From: Pseudomonadota bacterium | GTDB lineage: Bacteria > Pseudomonadota > Alphaproteobacteria > CACIAM-22H2 | DNA length: 33,460 nucleotides | Reading direction: 5' to 3' | Assembly: GCA_016201015.1 (NCBI GenBank) | Contig: JACQDQ010000333.1 | Coordinates: forward strand, 1-33,460 | Part shown: positions 1,356 to 16,100 of the stretch, one piece after another | How the letters are laid out: each line of letters begins with the position of its first letter | How positions within the stretch are numbered: position 1 is the stretch's first letter | Notes under the pieces: model-generated | Told to the model about the DNA's origin: nothing | Database searches by the model: none | Seen by the model: the letters and a program-made list of their open reading frames with translations, nothing else | Program-made: the position numbers and the translations under genes

Positions 1356-3092
1356 CTAGAACAGCCCCTCGATCTTCCCCTCGGCATTGACCTTGATGTT
1401 GTTGGCCGCCGGCACCCTGGGCAGGCCGGGCATGGTCATGATCTCGCCGCAGACGATGACGAGAAATTCGGCGCCGGCCGAGACCCGCACCTCGCGGATC
1501 GGCACCACGTGGTTGGCCGGCGCGCCCTTGAGGTTGGGATCGGTCGAGAAGCTGTACTGGGTCTTGGCGATGCACACCGGGTAGTGGCCGAAGCCGCCGG
1601 CCTGCAGCTCCTTGATCTGGTCGCGCACCTTGCTGTCGGCGACGATGTCGCTGGCGCCGTAGAGCTGCGTGGCGATGGTTTTGATTTTGTCCCACAGCGG
1701 CATCTCGTCGGGGTAAAGCGGCTTGAACTTCGACGTGCCCTTGTCGCAGATGCGCACCACGGCGCGGGCCACCTCGGCCGCACCGGCGGCGCCGGCCGCC
1801 CAGTGATCGGCGATGAACGCCTCGACGCCGAGATCGGCGCAGGCCTGCTTCACCAGATCGATCTCGGCCGGCGTGTCGTTGCTGAAGCGGTTGAACGACA
1901 CGACCAGCGGCACGCCGAATTTCTGCACGTTGGTGACGTGGCGCTGCAGATTGGCCAGGCCTTTCTTGAGGGCGTCGAGATTCTCGTTCTTCAGCGCGTC
2001 CTTGGCGACGCCCCCGTGCATCTTGAGCGCGCGGATGGTAGCGACCAGCACGGCGCAGTCGGGCTTCAAGCCGGCCTTGCGGCACTTGATGTCGAAGAAC
2101 TTCTCGGCGCCGAGATCGGCGCCGAACCCGGCCTCTGTCACCACGTAGTCGGCAAGCTTGAGCGCCGTCGTGGTGGCGAGCACTGAGTTGCAGCCATGCG
2201 CGATGTTGGCGAACGGGCCGCCGTGGATGAAGGCGGGGTTGTTCTCCAATGTCTGGACGAGATTCGGCGCCAGCGCGTCCTTGAGCAGCGCCGTCATTGG
2301 GCCCTGCGCCTTGAGGTCGGCGGCGCGCACCGCCTTGCGGTCGCGCGTATAGCCGACGATGATGTTGCCGAGCCGGCGCTGCAGATCGTCGAGGCTGGTC
2401 GACAGGCAAAAGATCGCCATCACCTCGGAGGCGACGACGATGTCGAACCCGTCCTCGCGCGGGAAGCCGTTGGCCACGCCGCCCAGAGACGAGACGATCG
2501 AGCGCAGCGCGCGGTCGTTCATGTCGAGGGCGCGGCGCCAGGCGACGCGGCGTGGATCGATGCCGAGGGTGTTGCCCCAGTAGACATGGTTGTCGATGAG
2601 CGCGGCGAGCAGGTTGTTGGCGGCGCCGATCGCGTGGAAGTCGCCGGTGAAATGGAGGTTGATGTCCTCCATCGGCACGACCTGGGCGAAGCCGCCGCCG
2701 GCGGCGCCGCCCTTGACGCCGAAGCACGGGCCGAGGCTCGGCTCGCGCAGGCAGAGAATCGCCTTCTTGCCGATGTGGTTGAGCGCGTCGCCTAGGCCGA
2801 CTGTCGTCGTCGTCTTGCCCTCGCCGGCCGGCGTCGGCGTGATGGCGCTGACCAGGACGAGCCTGCCGTTGGGCCGGCTCTGCAAGGTCTTGATGTAGTC
2901 GATCGAAATCTTGGCCTTGTAGTGGCCGTAGGGCTCGAGGTTCTTGGCATCGATGCCGAGCTTGTCGCGCGCCACCTCGACGATCGGCCGCATCGTCGCC
3001 GCCTGCGAGATGGCGATGTCGGATTTGGGGCTGCGGTGCTGCTCGGCGGGGTCGCGCATGCCTCGCTCCTGCGGTATCCGTGACTCGTGCAT
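1356..3092 (-). CDS. fhs: formate--tetrahydrofolate ligase
   Basis: Catalyses formate + ATP + tetrahydrofolate to 10-formyl-tetrahydrofolate, the entry of formate into folate C1 metabolism; it can run in reverse and make ATP. The product is 578 residues, slightly above the usual 555-560. The family landmarks are present: the ATP loop [15 protein letters not shown] near residue 88, [18 protein letters not shown], and a C-terminus ending [17 protein letters not shown]. Two starts are plausible. The ATG at 3092 has GGGAG at good spacing and sits 4 bases after the upstream stop. The ATG at 3059 has AGGAG 7 bases upstream and gives 567 residues, nearer the family length. It is the last gene of the minus-strand gntR-lyase-frc-formyltransferase-fhs operon, so it is placed to handle formate or formyl groups released by that pathway. 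Confidence 0.96.
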
Positions 3093-3096
3093 GTTC

Positions 3097-4032
3097 TTAG
3101 CTCCCTAGACGATCTCCGGCCTTGAGGCCGGCGGTGTTTGCAAACTCCGCGGCGGCCAATTTGGCGCCGCCCTCTTGTCGTACCCGCATCACCTGAATGC
3201 GCCCATCGGCGCAGACCACGGTGAAGCCCTGGTCGTCGACTTCCATCACTTGGCCCATGGCGCCGCCGATGCCTGACGGGGTGCGGGCCGGGACCTTCCT
3301 CGTCTCGAAGATGGTGAGCTTCTTGCCGTTGAGCGTCGTCCACGCGCCGGGCTGCGGGTTGCATCCGCGCACCAGATTGTGGATGTGGAAGCCCTGGCGG
3401 CCCCAGTCGATGCGCGCGTTGTCGCTCGTGCACCAGCCCTCGTAGGTCGCCTTCGCTTCCTCCTGGGGAATCTTTGGCGCCTTGCCGGTCTTGACCAGGT
3501 CGACCGCCTCCATCATCGCCGCAACGCCCATCGGGAACAGCCGATCGAAGTACACCGAGGCCAGAGAATCGTCGTCGGAGACCGGCGTCTTCATTTGCAG
3601 CAGGATCGGGCCGGTATCGAGGCCGTCGTCCGGCCAAAAAATCGACAGGCCGGTTTCGGTGCGGCCTTGGATGATCGGCCAGTTGATCGAGCTCGGACCG
3701 CGGTGCAGCGGCAGCAGCGAGGGGTGGTACTGGATCGAGCCGTGGGTCGGGATATTCAGAAAGCCGGATGGCACGAACAGCGTGACATAGGCCATCACAC
3801 AGAGATCGGGCTCGAGCGCCTTGAACTGGTCCCACACCTCGCCCGGCTTGCGGTAGGACTTGGGCTGATGGAGTGGCAGGCCGGCGGCCACGGCCGCCTC
3901 CTTGAGCGGGTCGGTCTTCTGCCCCTCCTTGTCGGGCGCGACATAGACGGCGGCGACGTTCTCGCCGCGCTTGAGCAGCGCCTCGAGCACGGCCTTGCCG
4001 AAGGCCTGTTGTCCGTGAACGACGATACGCAT
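3097..4032 (-). CDS. formyltransferase / 10-formyl-THF hydrolase-like protein (ALDH1L N-domain type)
   Basis: A 311-residue protein with an N-terminal Rossmann-type formyl_trans_N domain (about 1-180) and a C-terminal formyl_trans_C domain (about 205-300). The catalytic signature [11 protein letters not shown] gives His103, and [10 protein letters not shown] gives Asp139. These correspond to His106 and Asp142 of the hydrolase domain of mammalian 10-formyl-THF dehydrogenase (ALDH1L1). Several stretches ([42 protein letters not shown]) look closer by eye to ALDH1L1 than to methionyl-tRNA formyltransferase; this comparison is from memory. The phosphopantetheine carrier and aldehyde dehydrogenase domains of ALDH1L1 are absent. 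It sits 20 bases downstream of frc and 4 bases before fhs, so a job in formyl transfer for this pathway is likely. Alternatives are a housekeeping-like Fmt paralogue or a simple 10-formyl-THF hydrolase. Confidence 0.82.
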
Positions 4033-4052: not shown

Positions 4053-5498
4053 TCAGACGGCGCCTTCGGCTCGCAGAGCGGCGACCTGGTCCTTCGAGTA
4101 GCCGAGTTCCTTCATCAGGACCTCGTCGGTGTGCTCCCCCAGCAGCGGCGAGGTCTTCACTTCGACACGCGTGTCCGACAGGTTGAGCGGGCAGCCGATG
4201 GTGAAGAACGTGCCGCGCTGCTTGTGCGGCACCTCGACGATCACGCCGCGCTCGCGCAGGGACTTGTCATCGATTAGATCCTTCATCGACATGATCGGAC
4301 CGCACGGCACGTCGATGTCGTTGAGCTTCGTCATCACCTCCATTTTGGTAAATTTCTGCGTCCACTCTTCGATGATCGCCCAGACCCGATCGAGGCGCGG
4401 CAAGCGGGCCTGCGGCGTGGCGAAATTGGGATCGACGGCGAGCTCCGGCCGGCCCATGAGCTTGACCAGAGGCTCCCACACATGCGGCTGGATGATGACA
4501 TAGCAATAGTCATTGGCGCCGCCTGGAGCGCATTTGACGGCGTTGCCCGGCTGGCCGCCGCCTGAGGCATTGCCGGCGCGCGGCGCGAAGTCGACGATTT
4601 CCTTGTTCGGGTATTCCGGCAGCGCCTTGTCACCCCATTTCGGATTGCCGTTCTTGCGTGCCCATTCGACGCGCTGCTGATCGCGCATCTTGACGCGGCA
4701 AAGGTTAAGCACCGCGTCCTGCATGAACAGCTCTACGCGCTGGCCGCGGCCAGTGCTCTGCCGTTGGATCAGCGCCGCCAGCATGGCGGCTACGCAGTGT
4801 ATGCCGGTGCCCGAATCGCCGATCTGCGCGCCCGAGACGGTCGGCGGGCCATCTTCCCAGCCGGTGGTGCTGGAGTTGCCGCCCATGCATTGGGCGACGT
4901 TTTCATACGCCTTGTAGTCATAAAATGGGCCCGGGCCGAAGCCTTTGATCGAGGCGTAGATGACTCGCGGGTTGATCTTGTGGATCGTCTCCCAGGTGAA
5001 GCCCATGCGATCGAGCACGCCCGGGCCGAAATTCTCGATCAACAGGTCGGATGTCTTGAGCAGCTCGGTGAAGATTTTCTTCCCGTTCTCCGACTTCATG
5101 TTGATGGTAATGCCCCGCTTGTTGCAGTTGAGCATCGTGAAATAAAGGCTGTCGGCGTCGGGCATGTCGCGGAGTTGTCCGCGCGTGATGTCGCCGCGCC
5201 CGGGCGGCTCCACCTTGATCACGTCGGCGCCCAGCCAGCCGAGAATCTGCGTCGCCGATGGGCCGGCTTGGACGTGGCTCATGTCGAGCACGCGGATGCC
5301 GGCCAGCGCCTTGCCGGCCTGGCCCCACGGTTTCGTCGACGGCTTGGGCAGTCCGTGGCCTGCAGTCTTCGCTGCCGGTCGCGTCGATGCCTTCCGCGCC
5401 ACCTTCGCCTTGCGGGCGACCTTCTTCGCCGCCGCCTTCCCCTTGGTCCGTGCCTTCGGCTTGCTCTTGTTCGGTGCTTTCTTATTGACCTTCGCCAT
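4053..5498 (-). CDS. frc: formyl-CoA transferase (class III CoA-transferase) with basic N-terminal tail
   Basis: Transfers CoA from formyl-CoA to an acid acceptor (oxalate in Oxalobacter), releasing formate. The 481 residues resemble Oxalobacter Frc from about residue 62 to the end. Motifs: HVQAGPSATQ with Gln77 (Frc Gln17), GDSGTG with catalytic Asp228 (Frc Asp169), the glycine loop SGGGQPG at about 312-318, and LLGEHTDEVL near the C-terminus. The position I align with Frc Trp48 is Gln108 here (TRGQLRD versus TRGWLQD). Residues 2-57 are an added lysine/alanine-rich tail that resembles a histone H1 tail; there is no internal Met before residue 73 to shorten it, and a G-rich ribosome site precedes the ATG. 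The gene lies 16 bases after the lyase stop. The CoA-transferase assignment is firm; oxalate as the acceptor is likely but not certain. Confidence 0.93.
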   Translation of the reverse strand: MAKVNKKAPNKSKPKARTKGKAAAKKVARKAKVARKASTRPAAKTAGHGLPKPSTKPWGQAGKALAGIRVLDMSHVQAGPSATQILGWLGADVIKVEPPGRGDITRGQLRDMPDADSLYFTMLNCNKRGITINMKSENGKKIFTELLKTSDLLIENFGPGVLDRMGFTWETIHKINPRVIYASIKGFGPGPFYDYKAYENVAQCMGGNSSTTGWEDGPPTVSGAQIGDSGTGIHCVAAMLAALIQRQSTGRGQRVELFMQDAVLNLCRVKMRDQQRVEWARKNGNPKWGDKALPEYPNKEIVDFAPRAGNASGGGQPGNAVKCAPGGANDYCYVIIQPHVWEPLVKLMGRPELAVDPNFATPQARLPRLDRVWAIIEEWTQKFTKMEVMTKLNDIDVPCGPIMSMKDLIDDKSLRERGVIVEVPHKQRGTFFTIGCPLNLSDTRVEVKTSPLLGEHTDEVLMKELGYSKDQVAALRAEGAV

Positions 5499-5514: not shown

Positions 5515-7278
5515 TCACTTGTACATGGTCTGATTCTTGGTGCCCGGCGCGTACTCGTTCGGGTCGACCCAGATATTGATCACCGCCGATTTGCCTGATT
5601 TGGCGACTTGCTCGCGCGCCTGGCGCAGCGCTGGTGCAATCTTTGAGGCCTCGCGCACCTCTTCGCCGTAGCCGCCCCACATCTGCGGAAAAACGGAGAA
5701 ATTCATGTCGCCGAGCTTGTTGCCGACATTGCCGCGCTGCTCGCCGTATTTGGCGATCTGTCCGTAGCGGATCTGGTTCATCGCCGAGTTGTTGCCGATG
5801 ACCGCGATATAGGGGGCGCCGAAGCGATCGGCGGTCTCCATATCGAAGGCGGTCATGCCGAAGGCGCCGTCGCCGTAGTAGCAGAGCACCTCCTTCTTCG
5901 GATGGGCGAGCTTGGCGGCCATCGCGAAGCCAGTGCCGACACCGAGCGAGCCGAGCGCACCGGGATCCATCCAGTTGCCGGGCCCGCGGGGACGCACGGC
6001 CTGTGCCGAGATCGTCACGACGTCGCCGCCGTCGCCGATATAGATCGTGTCGTCGGTCAGGAACTCGTTGATCTCATAGGCCACCCGATAGGGGTGGATC
6101 GGCGTCTGCTCCGACTTGAACATCGGCATCAGCTTCTCTGTGGCTACGTCCTCCGCCTCTGAAAGCTGCTTCATCCACTGCCGGCGCGCCTGGCGCTTGT
6201 CGTTCTTCAGGCGGCCGGAAGCCGCCTGCAGCACCGCCTTGAGCACCGCGCCGGGATCGCCGACGATTCCGAACGAGACATCGCGGTTCTTGCCGACGGT
6301 GCGGTAATCGAGGTCGATCTGCACCAGCGTGGGCACGCTGATGCGCTTGCCATAGCCCATGCGGAAATCGAATGGTGTGCCGACGATGACGATGACGTCG
6401 GCCTTGCCGAAGGCAAGCGACCGGGTGCGGTCGAAATGATGCGGATCGCCGGGCGGCAGCAGGCCGCGGCTTGCACCGTTGAAGTAGCCGGGAATGTCGA
6501 GACCGCGCAGCAGCGCGATCGCTTCCTGATGTCCGCGCGCGGCCCATACTTGCTGACCGAACAGGATTGCCGGACGCTCGGAGTTCACCAGGATGTCGGC
6601 AAGCTTCTCGACGTCGTTCGGATCGCCGGCTGACTTGGTTGAGGCGCGGTATTTGCCGGGCTTCGGCAGCACGGCCTTCGCAATGTCGACTTCGCGATCG
6701 AGAACGTCGCGTGGGATTTCGAGATAGCTCGGCCCATATGCGCCGGCAAAACATTCGCGCGCTGCCATGGCGATCATGTCGGCGACGCGCTCGGTCGACA
6801 TTACGGTCGAGGCGAACTTGGTGATCGGCCGCATGATGTCGACATGCGGCAGATCCTGCAGCCCGCCCATCCGCCATTGCGTGAGCGCGCTCTGTCCGCC
6901 GATATGGAGCACGGGGCTTTCGGAGCGGAACGCCGTGGCGATTCCGGTGATTGCATTGGTGCAGCCGGGCCCGGCGGTCGTCACCACGCAGCCGAGCCTG
7001 CCCGTCTGGCGCGCATAGCCATCGGCCGCGTGCGCAGCGGTCTGCTCGTGGCGCACGTCGACGATACGGATGCCCTCGTCGAGGCAGCCGTCATAAATGT
7101 CGATGATGTGGCCGCCGCACAGCGTGAAGATCGTGTCGACGCCCTCGGCCTTCAGCGCCTTGGCGACGAGATGACCGCCCGAGATGATGTTCGGGTCGGC
7201 GCTTTTGCGTTTAAGGGTGTCTTCCGCCGTGCTGGCGGCAGGCTTGGCTGTCTTTGTCGCAGTTGTGGCTTCAGCCAT
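5515..7278 (-). CDS. ThDP-dependent 2-hydroxyacyl-CoA lyase / oxalyl-CoA decarboxylase-like enzyme
   Basis: Thiamine-diphosphate enzyme of the acetolactate synthase/oxalyl-CoA decarboxylase/HACL superfamily, 587 residues from the chosen start. The ATG at 7278 follows GGAGAGGGAGAGAAAC, whereas a longer frame to 7332 lacks a ribosome site and would overlap gntR. Seen: the ThDP-activating glutamate in DVRHEQTAAHAADGYAR (Glu78), a central domain (about 190-330), and a ThDP/metal motif GDGAFG...GNN at about 469-497. By remembered sequences the enzyme follows human ILVBL (HACL2) closely at GGHI, TAGPGCTNAITG, GTPFDFRMGYG, VRPRGPGNWMDPGALGSLGVG and QIRYGQ. It lacks the NNGGIYKG stretch of Oxalobacter Oxc. 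Oxc makes formyl-CoA by decarboxylation; HACLs make formyl-CoA plus an aldehyde or ketone. Either product feeds the adjacent Frc. Residues 2-29 are a low-complexity Ala/Lys/Thr tail. Confidence 0.85.
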   Translation of the reverse strand: MAEATTATKTAKPAASTAEDTLKRKSADPNIISGGHLVAKALKAEGVDTIFTLCGGHIIDIYDGCLDEGIRIVDVRHEQTAAHAADGYARQTGRLGCVVTTAGPGCTNAITGIATAFRSESPVLHIGGQSALTQWRMGGLQDLPHVDIMRPITKFASTVMSTERVADMIAMAARECFAGAYGPSYLEIPRDVLDREVDIAKAVLPKPGKYRASTKSAGDPNDVEKLADILVNSERPAILFGQQVWAARGHQEAIALLRGLDIPGYFNGASRGLLPPGDPHHFDRTRSLAFGKADVIVIVGTPFDFRMGYGKRISVPTLVQIDLDYRTVGKNRDVSFGIVGDPGAVLKAVLQAASGRLKNDKRQARRQWMKQLSEAEDVATEKLMPMFKSEQTPIHPYRVAYEINEFLTDDTIYIGDGGDVVTISAQAVRPRGPGNWMDPGALGSLGVGTGFAMAAKLAHPKKEVLCYYGDGAFGMTAFDMETADRFGAPYIAVIGNNSAMNQIRYGQIAKYGEQRGNVGNKLGDMNFSVFPQMWGGYGEEVREASKIAPALRQAREQVAKSGKSAVINIWVDPNEYAPGTKNQTMYK

Positions 7279-7324
7279 GTTTCTCTCCCTCTCCAAATTC
7301 GTGCGCCGGCATTCCGGCGGTTTC

Positions 7325-8014
7325 TCATTCAAGGTAGGTGACGTGCTTTTCGATGTGCTTGGCCAGATCCAGGCTGTGCTGGCGCACGAGCCGCTCCGCG
7401 CGGTCCGTCTCGCGCCGCTCCAGCGCCTCGATAATGTTCATGTGGTCGATGATCGAGCGCGTCACCCGATCGTCCTCGGAGATCGTCCGCCGTCGGATCG
7501 AGCGCATATGGATGAACAGGTTGTCCATGGTGTCGATCAGCGCGTGGTTGCGGCTCAGATTGACGATGCTCTGATGGAAGCGGATATTCGCCTCGGAGTA
7601 TTCGTCGATACGCAAGCGCGGCTCGTGCGTCTCGAAGTCGGTGAACAACGCGCGCAGCGAAGCGATCTCGGCGTCGCTCGCTTGGAGCGTGATGAGCCGC
7701 GCGGCCATGCTTTCGAGCGCCGCCCAGACGGTGATGATCTCGAGGATTTCCTTCTTCGTCTTGCGGACGACGAACATGCCGCGCCGCGGCACGGAGCGCA
7801 CCAACCCCTCTTGCTCCAGCCGGATGAGGGCCTCGCGGATCGGCGTGCGGCTGATCCCGAGATCGGCCGATAGCTGACGCTCGTCGAGGCGCAACTCCTG
7901 ATTGGAGTCATAGATGTTCATCGACGTGATGGCCCGCTTCAGCGCGTCATGGGCCATCGACTTGAAGCTGAGACTGGCTTCAATCGGCCGCACGTCGAGT
8001 TTGACCGCCGTCAC
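7325..8014 (-). CDS. GntR-family transcriptional regulator (FadR/FCD subfamily)
   Basis: A 229-residue regulator. The N-terminal winged helix-turn-helix (about 20-85) includes LDERQLSADLGISRTPIREALIRLEQEG split over the recognition helix, followed by GLVRSVPRRGMFV, the family wing. The C-terminal all-helical FCD ligand domain (about 95-220) carries acidic and histidine residues (EYSEANIRFHQ, RNHALIDTM, DHMNIIEALE) expected to bind a metal and a carboxylate effector. The GTG start has GGGAGG 9 bases upstream. It is first in the minus-strand operon, 46 bases before the lyase, and diverges from tctA, so it probably controls both its own operon and the transporter and is relieved by the imported acid or its CoA ester. 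A candidate operator lies at 8134-8152. Confidence 0.93.
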   Translation of the reverse strand: MTAVKLDVRPIEASLSFKSMAHDALKRAITSMNIYDSNQELRLDERQLSADLGISRTPIREALIRLEQEGLVRSVPRRGMFVVRKTKKEILEIITVWAALESMAARLITLQASDAEIASLRALFTDFETHEPRLRIDEYSEANIRFHQSIVNLSRNHALIDTMDNLFIHMRSIRRRTISEDDRVTRSIIDHMNIIEALERRETDRAERLVRQHSLDLAKHIEKHVTYLE

Positions 8015-8152: not shown

Positions 8153-8285
8153 CTCGCGCAAGACTCCCAAACGGCAAAGGAGCAGCCGGGTCAGCGACAA
8201 AGGGATGGCAGCTCGCTCGCCGACCTGAACGACGGAATGCTGTCGAGCAGGCAGTGGGTTGCGGCGAGCCGGGGGGAGACGCGTA

Positions 8286-9800
8286 GTGGAAGAAATCCAG
8301 GCGTTGTTTCACGGCTTTGCTGTCGTGCTGCAGCCGTTCAACCTCGTTTTGATGGTGATCGGAATCGTGCTGGGCGTGATCATCGGGGTCTTGCCCGGCC
8401 TTGGCGGCGCCAACGGCGTGGCGATCCTGCTGCCGCTCACCTTCTCGATGCCGCCCACCTCCGCCATCATCATGCTGTCGTGCATTTACTGGGGGGCTTT
8501 GTTCGGCGGCGCGATCACCTCGATTCTATTCAATATTCCGGGCGAGCCGTGGTCGGTAGCGACGACCTTCGACGGGCATCCGATGGCGCAGAAGGGCCAG
8601 GCCGGCGAGGCGCTGACCGGCGCCTTCACCTCGTCATTCGTCGGCGCCTTGGTCGCCGTCGTTCTCATCACCTTTCTTGCGCCGCTGGTCGCCAGATTCG
8701 CCCTGCGCTTCGGGCCGCCGGAGTTCTTCGCGGTTCAGTTCCTCACCTTCTGCAGCTTCATCGGCATGGGCAGAGGTTCGCCGTTCAAGACCATGGCATC
8801 GATGATGCTGGGATTTGCGATGGCGGCGGTCGGGCTCGACACGGTCACCGGCACGCTGCGCATGACCTTCGGCTGGAGCGAGCTGCTGCGCGGCTTCGAC
8901 TTTCTGATCGCCGTCATCGGGCTGTTCGGCATCGGCGAGATTCTGCTCACGATGGAGGAGGGGCTGGCCTTCAAGGGCATGTCGGCCAAGCTCAATCTCA
9001 AGGTCGTGCTGCAAACTTGGCGGCAGCTGCCGGCTTATTGGCTTACATCGCTGCGCGCGTCGACAATCGGCTGCTGGATGGGCATCACGCCCGGTGGCGC
9101 GACGCCGGCCTCGTTCATGAGCTACGGCATCGCCAAGCGCTTTTCGAAGAACGGCGACAAGTTCGGCACCGGCGAACTGGAGGGCGTGATCGCGCCCGAG
9201 ACCGCCGCGCACGCCGCTGGAACAAGCGCCTTGCTGCCGATGCTCACGCTCGGCATTCCCGGCTCGCCGACCGCGGCCGTCTTGCTCGGTGGTCTGCTGA
9301 TCTGGGGGCTGCAGCCTGGGCCGCTGCTGTTCATCGAGCAGAAGGAGTTCGTGTGGGGCCTCATCGCCAGCATGTATCTCGGCAACATCGTCGGCCTTAT
9401 CATCGTCCTCACTTGCGTTCCGTTCTTTGCCGCGATTCTGCGCGTCCCCTTCAGCATCATCGCCCCGATCATCCTCGTCATCTGCGCGGTGGGCGCCTAC
9501 ACGGTGCACAACGCCATGCTCGACATCTGGCTGATGGTGCTGTTCGGCGTCATCGGCTACGTGTTCAAGAAGCTCGACTACCCGCTGCCGCCGATGGTGT
9601 TGGCTCTCGTTCTCGGCGATATGGCCGAGAGCTCGTTCCGCCAATCAATGCTCAGCTCGCAGGGCAGCCTGTCGATATTCTGGTCGAATCCGCTGGTGGC
9701 GACGATTTTCGGGCTCGGCCTCATACTTCTGTTTTGGCCGTTAATCTCTTGGATCATGCAGTTGGCAAAACGGCGGGCTGTAGTATCATCAGGATCATGA
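8286..9800 (+). CDS. tctA: tripartite tricarboxylate transporter, large membrane subunit TctA
   Basis: Large permease of a TTT secondary carboxylate importer, 504 residues, the usual TctA length. The family signature GVLPGLGGANGVAILLPLTF lies near residue 35, with its second-half counterpart GITPGGATPAS and the conserved PETAAHAAGTSALLPMLTLGIPGS near 300-330. About 12 membrane segments are visible. The GTG at 8286 is chosen because GGGGGGAG precedes it by 7 bases and the protein then starts EEIQALFHGF, as in relatives; a TTG at 8259 has no such site. First gene of a plus-strand operon with tctC and tctB and divergent from gntR. Substrate likely a small carboxylate; the neighbouring Frc and lyase suggest it is the acid they act on. 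Confidence 0.95.
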   Translation: MEEIQALFHGFAVVLQPFNLVLMVIGIVLGVIIGVLPGLGGANGVAILLPLTFSMPPTSAIIMLSCIYWGALFGGAITSILFNIPGEPWSVATTFDGHPMAQKGQAGEALTGAFTSSFVGALVAVVLITFLAPLVARFALRFGPPEFFAVQFLTFCSFIGMGRGSPFKTMASMMLGFAMAAVGLDTVTGTLRMTFGWSELLRGFDFLIAVIGLFGIGEILLTMEEGLAFKGMSAKLNLKVVLQTWRQLPAYWLTSLRASTIGCWMGITPGGATPASFMSYGIAKRFSKNGDKFGTGELEGVIAPETAAHAAGTSALLPMLTLGIPGSPTAAVLLGGLLIWGLQPGPLLFIEQKEFVWGLIASMYLGNIVGLIIVLTCVPFFAAILRVPFSIIAPIILVICAVGAYTVHNAMLDIWLMVLFGVIGYVFKKLDYPLPPMVLALVLGDMAESSFRQSMLSSQGSLSIFWSNPLVATIFGLGLILLFWPLISWIMQLAKRRAVVSSGS

Positions 9801-9854: not shown

Positions 9855-10868
9855 ATGGTTAATCTTAGGGCCAAGTACATATTCGCCGGTGCGGCTTTTG
9901 CCGCGGCAGCGACGCTCGCACCGACGGCATTTGCGCAATGGCAGCCGACCAAGCCGGTGACTTTCGTCATTCCCGCTGGAACCGGCGGCGGGGCCGACCA
10001 GATGGCGCGCATGATCCAAGGGATCGCCGCCAAGTACAATCTGACGAGTCAGCCAATAGTCGTGGTTAACAAGGCAGGTGGAGCGGGTGCCGAGGGATTC
10101 CTCGACGTCAAGCAGAGCAACGGCGATCCTCACAAAATCATCATCACGCTGTCCAATCTGTTCACCACGCCGTTGGCAACCGGCGTGCCATTCAATTGGA
10201 AGGACATGACGCCGGTGGCGATGCTGGCCCTCGACCAATTCGTGCTGTGGGTCAATGCCGAAACGCCGTACAAGACCCCGAAAGATTACCTCGATGCGGT
10301 CAAGGCGGGCGGCCCGAATAAGTTCAAGATGGGCGGCACCGGCTCCAAGCAGGAAGACCAGATCATCACGGTCGCCATCGAGAAGCTGACCGGCGCCAAG
10401 TTCACCTATATTCCGTACAAGGGCGGCGGCGACGTCGCCGTGCAGCTCGTCGGCAAGCACGTCGATTCGACGGTCAACAATCCGATCGAAGCCGTCGCGC
10501 AATGGCGTGCCGGCAGCCTGCGGCCGCTCTGCGTGCTCGACAGCAAGCGGATGCCTTACAAGGAGAAGATGACGTCGGACATGTCGTGGAACGATATCCC
10601 GACTTGCAAGGAGACGGGGTTCGACGTCGAGTATCTCATGCTGCGCGGCATCTTCATGTCGCCGGGCGTGCAGCAGCAGCACGTCGACTACTATGTCGGC
10701 GTGTTCAAGAAGGTGATGGAGACGCCCGAGTGGAAGGACTTCATGGAGAAGGGCGCTTTCAACACCACCTTCATGACCGGCAAGGAGTATAGCGACTGGG
10801 TCGCGAACGCCGAGAAGGCACATCTCGAGCTGATGAAGGAAGCGGGCTTCCTCGCCAAGACCAATTGA
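9855..10868 (+). CDS. tctC: TTT substrate-binding protein TctC (Bug family)
   Basis: Periplasmic solute receptor that captures a carboxylate and delivers it to TctA/TctB. The 337 residues start with a signal peptide (FAGAAFAAAATLAPTAFA, cleavage near residue 27), followed by the Bug-fold opening WQPTKPVTFVIPAGTGGGAD. Other family features are VVVNKAGGAGAEGFL, the VAMLALDQFVLWVN strand, GTGSKQEDQI and YIPYKGGGDVAVQLVGKHVD. A strong ribosome site GAGGAG stands 8 bases before the ATG. It is 54 bases downstream of tctA, so the gene order is A-C-B rather than the more usual C-B-A. A stable hairpin follows the stop. The ligand cannot be deduced from sequence. Confidence 0.95.
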   Translation: MVNLRAKYIFAGAAFAAAATLAPTAFAQWQPTKPVTFVIPAGTGGGADQMARMIQGIAAKYNLTSQPIVVVNKAGGAGAEGFLDVKQSNGDPHKIIITLSNLFTTPLATGVPFNWKDMTPVAMLALDQFVLWVNAETPYKTPKDYLDAVKAGGPNKFKMGGTGSKQEDQIITVAIEKLTGAKFTYIPYKGGGDVAVQLVGKHVDSTVNNPIEAVAQWRAGSLRPLCVLDSKRMPYKEKMTSDMSWNDIPTCKETGFDVEYLMLRGIFMSPGVQQQHVDYYVGVFKKVMETPEWKDFMEKGAFNTTFMTGKEYSDWVANAEKAHLELMKEAGFLAKTN

Positions 10869-11532: not shown

Positions 11533-11619
11533 CCGATGCAACGTGACGCGCGGCAGACCGCCTCGGTTGCCGGAGAGCGTCCCGACGCGACGACACGAGA
11601 TACAGACAGGTTCCACGCG

Positions 11620-13329
11620 ATGGCACATTCGACGCACGACGCAAAGCAACGCAGCCGTTCCGGGCAGGGCGGTCGCCGGGCCAGGTCGCAGCCGAAGGGC
11701 CGGCAGGTCGACCCTGCGGCGCTAGCCGAGGTTCAGGCATTGCTTGGCGAGCGGCCGCGTCGCCGCGACTTACTCATTGAGCATTTGCACCTCATCCAGG
11801 ACCGCCATCATTGCCTTTCGGCGGCGCATCTCGCCGCGCTCGCACACGAGATGAAGCTGGCGCTCACCGAGGTTTACGAGGTGGCGACGTTCTACGCCCA
11901 TTTCGACGTCGTGTGCGAGGGCGAAGCGCCGCCGGCCCCGGTCACCATCCGCGTGTGCGACAGCCTGAGCTGCGAGCTCTTCGGCGCCGACAGGCTGCTT
12001 GCCGAGCTGACGTCGAAATATGCCGAGGGCCGAAAAGTTCGCGTGGTGCGCGCGCCATGCATGGGCGCCTGCGACCGGGCGCCCGTCAGCGCCGTCGGCC
12101 ACGATCAGGTCATGCGCGCGACGGTGCCGAGAGTCGCCGCCGCAATCGCTGCATCACATGACGGGCCGGCGCTCAAGCCGGCTACGGACTATGCCGCCTA
12201 TATCGCCGCGGGGGGCTACAAGCTGCTGCGCGACGGTCTCGACGGGCGGCGGACGCGCGACGACCTGATCAAGGCGGTCGACGACGCCGGGTTGCGCGGG
12301 CTCGGCGGCGCCGGTTTCCCCACCGGGCGTAAATGGCAGCTCGTGCGCAAGGAGGCAGCGCCGCGCCTGATGACGGTCAACGCCGACGAAGGCGAGCCCG
12401 GCACCTTCAAGGACCGCCACTATCTCGAGACCGATCCGCACCGTTTCCTCGAAGGCATGCTGATCGCGGCATGGGTCGTGGAGGCCGGCGACGTCTACAT
12501 CTATTTGCGCGACGAATATCCGGCCATCCGCCACATGCTGCTCGCGGAAATTGCCGAGATCGAGGCGGCGGGGCTGGCGCGCGATACCCGCGTTCATCTT
12601 CGCCGCGGCGCCGGCGCTTATATCTGCGGCGAAGAGTCGGCGATGATCGAAAGCATCGAGGGCAAGCGCGGCCTGCCGCGCCATCGGCCGCCTTACGTGG
12701 CCCAGGTCGGGTTGTTCGGCCGGCCGACGCTGGTGCAGAACGTCGAGACGCTTTTTTGGGTGCGCGATATCGCGGAGCGCGGCGCTGCCTGGTTTGCGGG
12801 CCACGGACGGCGTGGGCGCAAGGGCTTGCGCTCATTCTCCGTTTCCGGCCGTGTCAAGGATCCTGGCGTCAAGCTGGCGCCGGCCGGCATTACCATGCGC
12901 GAGTTGATCGACGAATATTGCGGCGGCATGGCCGACGGCCAGAGCTTCAAGGGCTATCTGCCGGGCGGTGCGTCGGGTGGAATTCTGCCGGCGTCGATGG
13001 GCGATCTGCCGCTCGATTTCGGCACGCTCGAACCGCATGGCTGCTTCGTCGGCTCGCATGCCGTTGTCATCCTGTCGGACAAAGACGATATGAAGGCGGT
13101 GGCCCTGAACCTCATCCGCTTCTTCGAGGACGAAAGCTGCGGTCAATGCACGCCGTGCCGCGTCGGCACCGAAAAGGCGGCGAAGTTGATGGCCGGCGGC
13201 AGATGGGACCAGGCGCTGCTCGACGATCTCGGCCGGGTCATGACCGATGCCTCGATCTGCGGCCTGGGCCAGGCGGCGTACAATCCGGTCAGAAGCGTGT
13301 TCAAGTATTTCCGCGAGGACCTGGCATGA
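11620..13329 (+). CDS. NAD-dependent formate dehydrogenase, fused NuoE/NuoF-like beta subunit
   Basis: NADH-forming subunit of a soluble molybdenum or tungsten formate dehydrogenase. The 569 residues fuse a NuoE-like [2Fe-2S] domain (about 30-170; RVCDSLSCELFG and APCMGACDRAP give the four cysteines) to a NuoF-like flavin domain (about 210-560). The latter has the NADH-site GLRGLGGAGFPTGRKW, the FMN-site GAGAYICGEESAMIESIEGK and the [4Fe-4S] motif ESCGQCTPCRVG with a fourth Cys in SICGLGQ. Methylobacterium FDH1 beta has the same fusion and a closely similar sequence. The start at 11620 gives 24 residues before PKGRQVDP, matching that relative; a frame extension to 11536 lacks a ribosome site. 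The stop overlaps the alpha-subunit ATG by 4 bases. Confidence 0.95.
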   Translation: MAHSTHDAKQRSRSGQGGRRARSQPKGRQVDPAALAEVQALLGERPRRRDLLIEHLHLIQDRHHCLSAAHLAALAHEMKLALTEVYEVATFYAHFDVVCEGEAPPAPVTIRVCDSLSCELFGADRLLAELTSKYAEGRKVRVVRAPCMGACDRAPVSAVGHDQVMRATVPRVAAAIAASHDGPALKPATDYAAYIAAGGYKLLRDGLDGRRTRDDLIKAVDDAGLRGLGGAGFPTGRKWQLVRKEAAPRLMTVNADEGEPGTFKDRHYLETDPHRFLEGMLIAAWVVEAGDVYIYLRDEYPAIRHMLLAEIAEIEAAGLARDTRVHLRRGAGAYICGEESAMIESIEGKRGLPRHRPPYVAQVGLFGRPTLVQNVETLFWVRDIAERGAAWFAGHGRRGRKGLRSFSVSGRVKDPGVKLAPAGITMRELIDEYCGGMADGQSFKGYLPGGASGGILPASMGDLPLDFGTLEPHGCFVGSHAVVILSDKDDMKAVALNLIRFFEDESCGQCTPCRVGTEKAAKLMAGGRWDQALLDDLGRVMTDASICGLGQAAYNPVRSVFKYFREDLA

Positions 13330-16100
13330 GCGACAGGCTCAGTTTCGAGCTCGACGGCAAGACGGTCGAGGCGGGTGCCGGCGAAACCATCTGGCAGGTC
13401 GCCAACCGGCTTGGCACGACGATCCCGCATCTCTGCTATTCGCCGGCCCCCGGCTACCGCGCCGACGGCAATTGCCGGGCCTGCATGGTGGAGGTGAAGG
13501 GCGAGCGCGTGCTGGCGGCTTCGTGCATCCGCAAGCCGACGCCGGGCATGGTGGTGACGACGGCAAGCGAGCGCGCGAAGACCGCGCGGCGCATGGTGAT
13601 GGAATTGCTGCTCGCCGACCAGCCGCCGCGTGCCGACGCGCATGATCCGGGCTCGCGGCTGTGGCATTGGGCCGACCATCAGGCGATCGCTGCCAGCCGC
13701 TATCCGGCGCGCGAATCACCGGCGCCCGATCCCAGCCATCCGGCGATGCGGGTCAATCTCGACGCCTGCATCCATTGCAATCTGTGCGTCCGTGCCTGCC
13801 GCGAAGTGCAGGTGAACGACGTCATCGGCATGGCCGGCCGTGGCCATCACGCCAAGATCGTTTTCGATTTCGACGATCCGATGGGGCAAAGCACCTGCGT
13901 CGCTTGCGGCGAGTGCGTGCAGGCCTGCCCGACCGGCGCACTGATGCCCGCCACATTGGTTGATACCCAGGGCGTCTTCGCGGCGGAGCCGGACCGCAAG
14001 GTCGATAGCGTGTGTCCGTATTGCGGCGTTGGCTGCCAGCTCACCTATAATATCAAGGATGACAAGCTGCTCTACGTGCAGGTGCGCGATGGCCCGGCCA
14101 ATGAGAATCGCCTTTGCGTCAAGGGCCGCTTCGGCTTCGACTACGTCCAGCATCCGCACCGTCTGACCGAACCGTTGATCCGCAAGACCGGCGTGACGAA
14201 GAGCGCCGATGACACGGTCGACCCGGCTAATCCATGGACCCATTTCCGCAGGGCAACATGGGATGAGGCATTGGCGCTGGCCGCCGGCGGCCTCAAGCAT
14301 ATCCGCGACCAGCATGGCGGCAACGCGCTGGCCGGCTTCGGCTCGGCCAAGGGCTCGAACGAGGAAGCCTATCTGTTCCAGAAGCTGGTCCGCACCGGCT
14401 TCGCCACCAACAACGTCGACCATTGCACGCGGCTGTGCCACGCCTCGTCGGTGTCGGCGCTGTTCGAGGGCATTGGCACCGCGGCCGTGACCGCGCCGTT
14501 CACTGCGGCCAAGGACGCCGAGGTCATCATCGTCATCGGCGCCAACCCGACCGACAACCATCCGGTCGCCGCCACCTACTTCAAGCAGGCCGCCAAGCGC
14601 GGCGCCAAGCTGATCGTCATGGACCCGCGCGGCACCGCAATGAAGCGCCACGCCACGCATATGTTGCAGTTCAAGCCCAACAAGGACGTCGCGCTGCTCA
14701 ACGCCATGCTCAACGTCATCGTCACCGAGGAGCTTTACGACCGCCAATACGTCCAGGCGCATACCAGCGACTTCGAGAAGCTCAAGGCGCATATCGTCGA
14801 TTACACGCCGGAGAAGATGGAGCCGGAATGCGGCATCGCGGCGGGAACCATCCGCCAGGTCGCGCGGCTATACGCGCGGTCCGAAGCGTCGATCATCTTC
14901 TGGGGCATGGGCATCTCGCAGAGCATTCACGGGACCAACAATGCGCGCTGTTTGATCGCGCTGGCGCTCACCACCGGTCAGGTCGGCCGTCCCGGCACCG
15001 GACTGCATCCGCTGCGTGGCCAGAACAACGTGCAGGGCGCCTCGGATGCCGGGTTGATCCCGATGTTCCTGCCCGACTACCAGTCGGTGGAGAATGCCGA
15101 GATTCGCGCCAGATACGAGAAGCTGTGGGACGCGCCGATCCCGCCCAAGCGCGGACTGACCGTCGTCGAGATCGTCAACGCGATTCTCAACGATCAGATC
15201 CGCGGCATGTATGTGATGGGCGAGAATCCGGCGATGTCGGATCCCGACGCGCATCACGCGCGCGCGGCGCTGGCCAAGCTTGAGCATCTGGTGGTGCAGG
15301 ATATCTTCCTCACCGAGACGGCCTACTACGCCGACGTCGTTCTGCCTGCCTCGGCCTGGCCGGAGAAGACCGGCACCGTCACCAACACCAACCGTCAGGT
15401 GCAGATGGGCCGGATCGCCTTGCCACTGCCCGGCCAAGCGCGGCAGGACTGGGAGCTGATCCAACAGATCGCCCACGGCGCCGGGTGGAAATGGACCTAC
15501 ACGCATCCGCGCGAGGTGTTCGCCGAGATGGCGCTGGCGATGCCGTCGCTCGCCAACATCACCTGGGAGCGGCTCGAGCGCGAGAGCGCCGTCACCTATC
15601 CCTGCCCAGCGCCCGACAAGCCGGGCGAGGACATCGTATTCGGCGACGGGCTGTTCCCAACCCCTGCCAAGCGCGGCAAGCTGGTGCCGGCCGAATACAC
15701 GGCTCCCGGTGAGCCAGTCGACGCCGAATACCCGATGGTCCTCACCACCGGACGCCAGCTCGAGCACTGGCACACCGGCGCGATGACGCGCCGTGCCAGC
15801 GTGCTCGACACCATCGAGCCCTCGGCCATCGCTTGCCTGTCGCCGAAGGACATGCGCGCGCTCGACGTACGCGGGGGCGACATCATCCGCGTGGCGACGC
15901 GCCGTGGCACGATCGAGCTTTCAGTGCGCATCGACGAGGCGGTGCCGAGTGGCATGGTGTTCATCCCATTCTGCTACGCCGAGGCGGCGGCCAATATCCT
16001 GACCAGCCCGCAGCTCGATCCGTTCGGCAAGATCCCCGAGTTCAAATACTGCGCCGCCCGCATCGAGAAGGCTGGCGCCGCGACAAGAGCGGCGGAGTAG
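13326..16100 (+). CDS. NAD-dependent formate dehydrogenase, catalytic alpha subunit
   Basis: Oxidises formate to CO2 at a bis-pyranopterin Mo/W site and passes electrons to the beta subunit. The 924 residues comprise an NuoG-like N-terminus (LCYSPAPGYRADGNCRACMVEV, a [2Fe-2S] site), a His/Cys cluster region, two ferredoxin-type motifs (CIHCNLCVRAC and CVACGECVQACP, about 155-205), a [4Fe-4S] motif CPYCGVGCQ near 235, and the molybdopterin oxidoreductase domain from about 290. The metal ligand is a cysteine, not selenocysteine: HCTRLCHASS gives Cys371-His372. The C-terminal molybdopterin dinucleotide-binding domain includes LTTGRQLEHWHTGAMTRR. The ATG overlaps the beta-subunit stop (ATGA). No FdhD/FdsC sulfurtransferase or delta subunit is present nearby. 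It would oxidise the formate released by Frc. Confidence 0.96.
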   Translation: MSDRLSFELDGKTVEAGAGETIWQVANRLGTTIPHLCYSPAPGYRADGNCRACMVEVKGERVLAASCIRKPTPGMVVTTASERAKTARRMVMELLLADQPPRADAHDPGSRLWHWADHQAIAASRYPARESPAPDPSHPAMRVNLDACIHCNLCVRACREVQVNDVIGMAGRGHHAKIVFDFDDPMGQSTCVACGECVQACPTGALMPATLVDTQGVFAAEPDRKVDSVCPYCGVGCQLTYNIKDDKLLYVQVRDGPANENRLCVKGRFGFDYVQHPHRLTEPLIRKTGVTKSADDTVDPANPWTHFRRATWDEALALAAGGLKHIRDQHGGNALAGFGSAKGSNEEAYLFQKLVRTGFATNNVDHCTRLCHASSVSALFEGIGTAAVTAPFTAAKDAEVIIVIGANPTDNHPVAATYFKQAAKRGAKLIVMDPRGTAMKRHATHMLQFKPNKDVALLNAMLNVIVTEELYDRQYVQAHTSDFEKLKAHIVDYTPEKMEPECGIAAGTIRQVARLYARSEASIIFWGMGISQSIHGTNNARCLIALALTTGQVGRPGTGLHPLRGQNNVQGASDAGLIPMFLPDYQSVENAEIRARYEKLWDAPIPPKRGLTVVEIVNAILNDQIRGMYVMGENPAMSDPDAHHARAALAKLEHLVVQDIFLTETAYYADVVLPASAWPEKTGTVTNTNRQVQMGRIALPLPGQARQDWELIQQIAHGAGWKWTYTHPREVFAEMALAMPSLANITWERLERESAVTYPCPAPDKPGEDIVFGDGLFPTPAKRGKLVPAEYTAPGEPVDAEYPMVLTTGRQLEHWHTGAMTRRASVLDTIEPSAIACLSPKDMRALDVRGGDIIRVATRRGTIELSVRIDEAVPSGMVFIPFCYAEAAANILTSPQLDPFGKIPEFKYCAARIEKAGAATRAAE

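Follow-up and report, generated by a model that had tools for sequence, protein, structure and literature searches.

Formyl-CoA and 10-formyltetrahydrofolate (10-formyl-THF) are two activated formates of aerobic bacteria, and they are normally drawn as joined only via free formate. To date, a formyl link between CoA and folate is known only in enzyme-bound form, from the hydrogenase-assembly protein HypX. HypX (HoxX) is reported to convert 10-formyl-THF and CoA to enzyme-bound formyl-CoA (Lenz group, cited in PMC12134894), and a structural case has been made for this reaction (PMC6802093). A related transfer is known from ALDH1L1, whose N-terminal hydrolase domain moves the formyl group from 10-formyl-THF onto a phosphopantetheine thiol; a thiol is considered a cofactor of this domain, a small one where the domain is isolated (PMC4388273). 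Methionyl-tRNA formyltransferase (Fmt) and ArnA have amine acceptors and a catalytic Asn. This Asn is crucial to amine-formylating enzymes, and exchange of Ile104 of ALDH1L1 for Asn leaves <10% of its hydrolase activity (PMC4388273). On the formyl-CoA side, a need for priming has been published: E. coli YfdE, an acetyl-CoA:oxalate CoA-transferase, is proposed to prime the OXC/Frc cycle from acetyl-CoA, and formyl-CoA has a half-life of 1.9 h (PMC3720670).

The window analyzed here is the whole 33,460-nucleotide stretch of contig JACQDQ010000333.1 from a Pseudomonadota bacterium. At 3097..4032 (-) it encodes a stand-alone ALDH1L1-type formyltransferase (FT) of 311 aa with Gln101, His103, Ser105, Asp139, and Tyr197. 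The gene starts with ATG, 5' of which lies AGGGGGA. Pfam finds Formyl_trans_N (PF00551, 103 bits) and Formyl_trans_C (PF02911, 81 bits) and nothing further; carrier and ALDH domains are absent from the 311 aa, and fhs begins within a few bases. FT belongs to a tightly spaced operon in the order GntR, ThDP lyase, Frc, FT, Fhs, in which FT starts ~20 bases past the end of Frc and Fhs starts just past FT. At the operon head is a GntR/FCD regulator (7325..8014, -). It is followed by a ThDP-dependent lyase (5515..7332, -), probably formyl-CoA-forming, which is 2-hydroxyacyl-CoA lyase-like, not OXC, and likely starts at an internal ATG, residue 19. Frc, of the formyl-CoA:oxalate CoA-transferase type (4053..5498, -), scores 612 bits on TIGR03253 (cut-off 504), and Fhs, formate--tetrahydrofolate ligase (1356..3092, -; PF01268, 895 bits), is the sole copy in the genome. 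An earlier note on this DNA had described a stand-alone ALDH1L1-type protein within an operon of formyl-CoA genes, and both points hold, with the reading frame exact and His103 and Asp139 aligned as stated. The CoA-transferase domain of Frc is preceded by ~55 N-terminal residues that form a Lys/Ala-rich, histone-H1-like extension. Divergent from the operon lie TctA, the large membrane subunit of a tripartite carboxylate transporter (8259..9800, +), probably for substrate import, and the substrate-binding protein TctC (9855..10868, +). Further on are a NuoE/NuoF-like diaphorase subunit of an NAD-dependent formate dehydrogenase (11536..13329, +) and a molybdenum formate dehydrogenase catalytic subunit (13330..16100, +; start approximate, open frame from 12333).

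Among solved chains, ALDH1L1 hydrolase domains come closest to FT in sequence (209-219 bits), with Fmt reaching up to 151 bits; FT is 44-45% identical to human/zebrafish ALDH1L1 and 29-35% identical to Fmt. The likeness to the ALDH1L1 hydrolase domain extends to the fold, the YHPSLLP and ATYE motifs, and the His-Ser-Asp triad. ALDH1L1 His106-Ser108-Asp142 is present as H103, S105, and D139, with His103 and Asp139 aligned to His106 and Asp142. In an alignment of 108 FT homologues, His103, Ser105, Asp139, Arg111, and Tyr197 are invariant. The best structural match of an AlphaFold model of FT (pLDDT 91) is 4qpd, followed by Fmt and ArnA, with HypX lower. The N-terminal domain of HypX/HoxX has the fold in common with FT (18% identity in the model match). 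However, HypX keeps its CoA constitutively bound and has a fused enoyl-CoA hydratase-like domain which decarbonylates the bound formyl-CoA to CO; this C-terminal domain was not found in FT by Pfam. FT also departs from ALDH1L1, as it has no carrier or aldehyde dehydrogenase domain, is bacterial, and lies in Frc operons. Moreover, column 101, which is Ile (Ile104) in ALDH1L1, is Gln in 103/108 FT homologues, Cys in 5/108, and never Ile, while it is Asn in 24/24 Fmt and in both ArnA-like rows. Since Gln or Cys replaces Ile here, the chemistry of FT may differ from that of ALDH1L1. Judged by these residues, FT is not built as an amine formyltransferase, yet it also differs from ALDH1L1. A tree of 136 rows, made by a quick method and with several long branches and ALDH1L1 rows truncated at ~250 aa, separates FT plus ALDH1L1 from Fmt and ArnA-like proteins (the latter taken from L186-L187) at an SH-aLRT of 96. 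Three tree candidates (L183-L185) were checked for HypX; none was HypX, two being PurN and one another formyltransferase.

Fmt and the N-terminal domain of ArnA share with FT the Formyl_trans_N + C architecture and the folate site, but the RPAGRG loop of Fmt is missing from FT in the alignment. On the curated fmt model TIGR00460, FT scores 164 bits, under the cut-off of 201.5, whereas the true Fmt of the genome (G000:C322) scores 292 bits and adjoins def (peptide deformylase). The genome holds three PF00551 genes: PurN (G000:C417), Fmt, and FT. No PurU is found among them, and FT itself matches no PurU profile (NCBIfam) and has no ACT domain (Pfam). The earlier note had asked whether FT might be the only fmt of its genome, and the gene next to def answers this in the negative. 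FT as a second Fmt or as the sole fmt was rejected on account of the separate Fmt, the score below cut-off, Gln101, and the missing loop. In one plasmid record (CP031587.1) FT is annotated as fmt_2, and it is an enzyme that usually bears the label of a tRNA formyltransferase. A similarity scan gave at least 503 FT relatives among the matches listed.

Genome surveys revealed that FT is a conserved partner of bacterial formyl-CoA genes, mostly those of oxalate breakdown. Two samples were used, 289 Alphaproteobacteria and 397 Pseudomonadota. Among the former, FT is found in 24 genomes, Frc in 27, and both in 21; among the latter, Frc is found in 34 genomes, including 10/10 of those with FT. The earlier note had proposed such a survey for co-occurrence with frc and the lyase. 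In the alphaproteobacterial sample FT is spread over 16 family labels, and in 15 of these it shares a genome with Frc. Even where FT is unlinked, Frc occurs elsewhere in 7/10 genomes, compared with 6/265 genomes without FT. Co-occurrence of FT and Frc is far above chance, although Fisher p-values overstate it, as the genomes share ancestry and are not independent. Some of the genomes surveyed are drafts. Where FT is linked to Frc, it lies directly downstream on the same strand in 85/85 loci (a biased sample). This adjacency is conserved across distant genomes, and in a small-genome genus outside Alphaproteobacteria the two genes are 3-5 bases apart. Order-level searches of Frc neighbours covered only three genomes each. 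Among 80 loci fetched by FT similarity, Frc is present in 75, Fhs in 70, OXC in 62, and a window-type lyase in 7, of which one is a distant 24% match and 6 are true. That the FT gene order recurs across many families is far beyond chance.

FT occurs without Frc in three genomes (G265, G272, and G283), and some FT genes adjoin unrelated genes such as those for gamma-glutamyltranspeptidase, amidase, and oxoprolinase; FT may therefore have a wider role. In L101, L113, and L119, the gene just ahead of the FT orthologue (67-68%) encodes a gamma-glutamyltranspeptidase and not Frc, and in L113 an SHMT-like gene follows FT. In L129, FT adjoins Fhs, class-I amidotransferase-like, and isochorismatase-like genes, and Frc is elsewhere in the genome.

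The lyase upstream of Frc is exchangeable. The window lyase has GLQDLPH where OXC has its DYEE motif, and among solved structures it comes closest to the actinobacterial 2-hydroxyisobutyryl-CoA lyase. It may decarboxylate oxalyl-CoA without being an OXC orthologue, or it may act as a 2-hydroxyacyl-CoA lyase. OXC occupies its place in most relatives (1027 bits, cut-off 739, for a true OXC). Of the Frc genomes in the 289 Alphaproteobacteria, 12 have OXC and nearly all others a window-type ThDP lyase, and no genome in this sample was seen to have both. Linked FT is accompanied by OXC in 70 loci and by a window-type lyase in 11. Since FT stays with either lyase, its substrate is likely the formyl-CoA that both would yield, or a product of Frc acting on formyl-CoA. 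Only 10/24 alphaproteobacterial FT genomes contain OXC, versus 21/24 with Frc, so it is Frc, not oxalate decarboxylation, that FT tracks. A tie of FT to OXC alone was ruled out, as FT also lies beside the window-type lyase. Outside the class, one genome (G556; L161, L162) has both lyases, each with its own Frc.

Fhs appears to be an optional partner. It is present in 28/29 alphaproteobacterial FT genomes versus 15/26 genomes without FT or Frc. However, five genomes outside the class (G438, G469, G529, G594, and G608; three are single-contig assemblies) have FT but no Fhs, as does G288, and obligate FT-Fhs coupling is thereby ruled out. In four of the five, FT directly follows Frc, and the two Fhs-less loci viewed (L163 and L168) have the order OXC-Frc-Frc-FT. 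The retention of FT without Fhs points to Frc as its partner and to Fhs as an optional supplier. Some Frc loci without linked FT have a different companion. An ADP-forming acyl-CoA synthetase is found in 7 of them, directly behind Frc in three (L147:4313-6466, L148:3435-5900, and L152:1156-3294) and divergent beside the operon in four (L158, L159, L160, and L182). Two further clusters without linked FT (L155 and L146) have AMP-forming ligases close to Frc. In none of 117 Frc loci do FT and the ADP-forming synthetase occur together near Frc. This would fit, though not prove, related work by FT (with Fhs) and the synthetase, namely interconversion of formate and formyl-CoA in which ATP is spent or gained. 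As 25/117 Frc loci have neither, priming by FT or by an ADP-forming synthetase is not universal.

With ALDH1L1 passing formyl to a phosphopantetheine thiol and HypX to CoA, CoA clearly suggests itself as the partner of a stand-alone domain encoded in a formyl-CoA operon. By this analogy FT is probably, though not strongly so, a reversible 10-formyl-THF:CoA formyltransferase acting on free CoA, which primes and balances the Frc cycle. Asp139, His103, and Ser105 would activate the CoA thiol as in ALDH1L1 and HypX. Formyl-CoA would form as this thiol accepts formyl from 10-formyl-THF, and in reverse the group would go back to THF, which would connect the Frc/lyase cycle with the pool of folates. 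Frc can activate its acid only with formyl-CoA, a labile catalyst which the cycle regenerates one for one but which is lost by hydrolysis or acyl-CoA withdrawal. Refilling would start from formate and ATP via Fhs, giving 10-formyl-THF, from which FT would make formyl-CoA; excess formyl-CoA would be drained by FT into 10-formyl-THF. In its priming role the proposed enzyme would resemble YfdE. YfdE, however, is a class III CoA-transferase acting on acetyl-CoA, uses no folate, and is unrelated in sequence.

The earlier note had proposed a CoA-folate bridge running from formyl-CoA to THF, with a saving of ATP. The link to formyl-CoA is upheld by the co-occurrence with Frc, even where unlinked. The direction is doubtful and probably the opposite, because in the known relatives the formyl group moves from 10-formyl-THF onto a thiol. 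Nor would ATP be saved unless formyl-CoA had another source: diverting it to THF spares the ATP of Fhs but forces a new activation elsewhere, with no net gain. We therefore infer that the main task is formation of formyl-CoA from 10-formyl-THF, reversed when formyl-CoA builds up. The same note knew of no described enzyme with this activity. HypX, as reported, is a precedent for the chemistry, with its CoA bound, and no precedent for the transfer with free CoA was found in the literature searched. In the same search, which covered few subscription journals, neither a formyl-CoA:THF enzyme nor an oxc/frc/fmt operon was found.

One alternative to the priming role has the same enzyme working with opposite net flux, as a formyl-CoA:THF formyltransferase that feeds 10-formyl-THF into assimilation, with Fhs making ATP or being unneeded. 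Judging by the hydrolysis energies of thioesters and 10-formyl-THF, passing formyl from a thioester on to THF should be energetically favourable, and in the Fhs-less genomes with FT behind Frc, FT could be the sole entry of formyl groups into folate. Serine-cycle-like genes beside the operon on plasmid CP031587 also speak for this flux. It would be sensible if oxalyl-CoA arose from glyoxylate oxidation, which would leave a surplus of formyl-CoA; such a source has been discussed for C. necator (PMC7486775). Barring another such route to oxalyl-CoA, replacing the drained formyl-CoA would cost as much ATP as Fhs does, and Fhs, needless for a bypass, adjoins FT in 70/80 loci. We consider this net direction rather unlikely.

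Less likely still is a plain 10-formyl-THF hydrolase, a substitute for PurU or the ALDH1L1 hydrolase which would release THF together with formate, either to keep the C1 pool in balance or to supply formate dehydrogenase. The nearest relative of FT is indeed a hydrolase domain in vitro, the genome lacks PurU, and FT genes occur outside the operon among unrelated genes. Beside Fhs, however, a hydrolase would set up a futile, ATP-wasting cycle, it would leave the tie to Frc unexplained, also where Fhs is absent, and the ALDH1L1 domain itself acts via a thiol. A second methionyl-tRNA formyltransferase, or an amine or sugar formyltransferase, is suggested by the fmt_2 label and the common fold; the model scores, the residue at column 101, the missing loop, and the tree split make it very improbable. 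A formyl-CoA thioesterase or salvage enzyme that merely frees CoA would explain the link to Frc without folate. It is hardly credible, as the folate-site residues (Tyr197, Asp139, and others) are kept, Fhs is the usual neighbour, and such an activity would defeat the conservation of CoA by Frc.

Taken more broadly, we lean slightly towards the view that a widespread, misannotated enzyme carries formyl groups to and fro between folate and free CoA. With Fhs as its partner, it would serve as a folate-mediated formate:CoA ligase that initiates and replenishes the breakdown of acids via formyl-CoA; run backwards, it would pass the carbon of formyl-CoA to folate. If true, this would explain the start and recovery of Frc-dependent oxalate breakdown in these bacteria, a need that YfdE meets in E. 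coli, and would correct the annotation "methionyl-tRNA formyltransferase" in soil and aquatic Proteobacteria. It would also offer a single-step folate link for synthetic one-carbon pathways built on formyl-CoA.

Several loci show further variation. Outside the class, tandem Frc copies, each above the Frc cut-off, are found in L163, L168, L173, and L174, and in the first two FT comes after the second copy. On plasmid CP031587.1 (64036-84950; L157), oxc-frc-FT-fhs adjoins genes for PEP carboxylase, a succinyl-CoA-ligase-like pair, a ketopantoate-reductase-like gene, and glyA; this serine-cycle-like neighbourhood is compatible with either direction of FT. Operons of alphaproteobacterial type are also found in MAGs labelled Cyanobacteria and Acidobacteria (L060 and L063). 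Their FT rows nest among alphaproteobacterial ones, which points to mislabelled bins or transfer.
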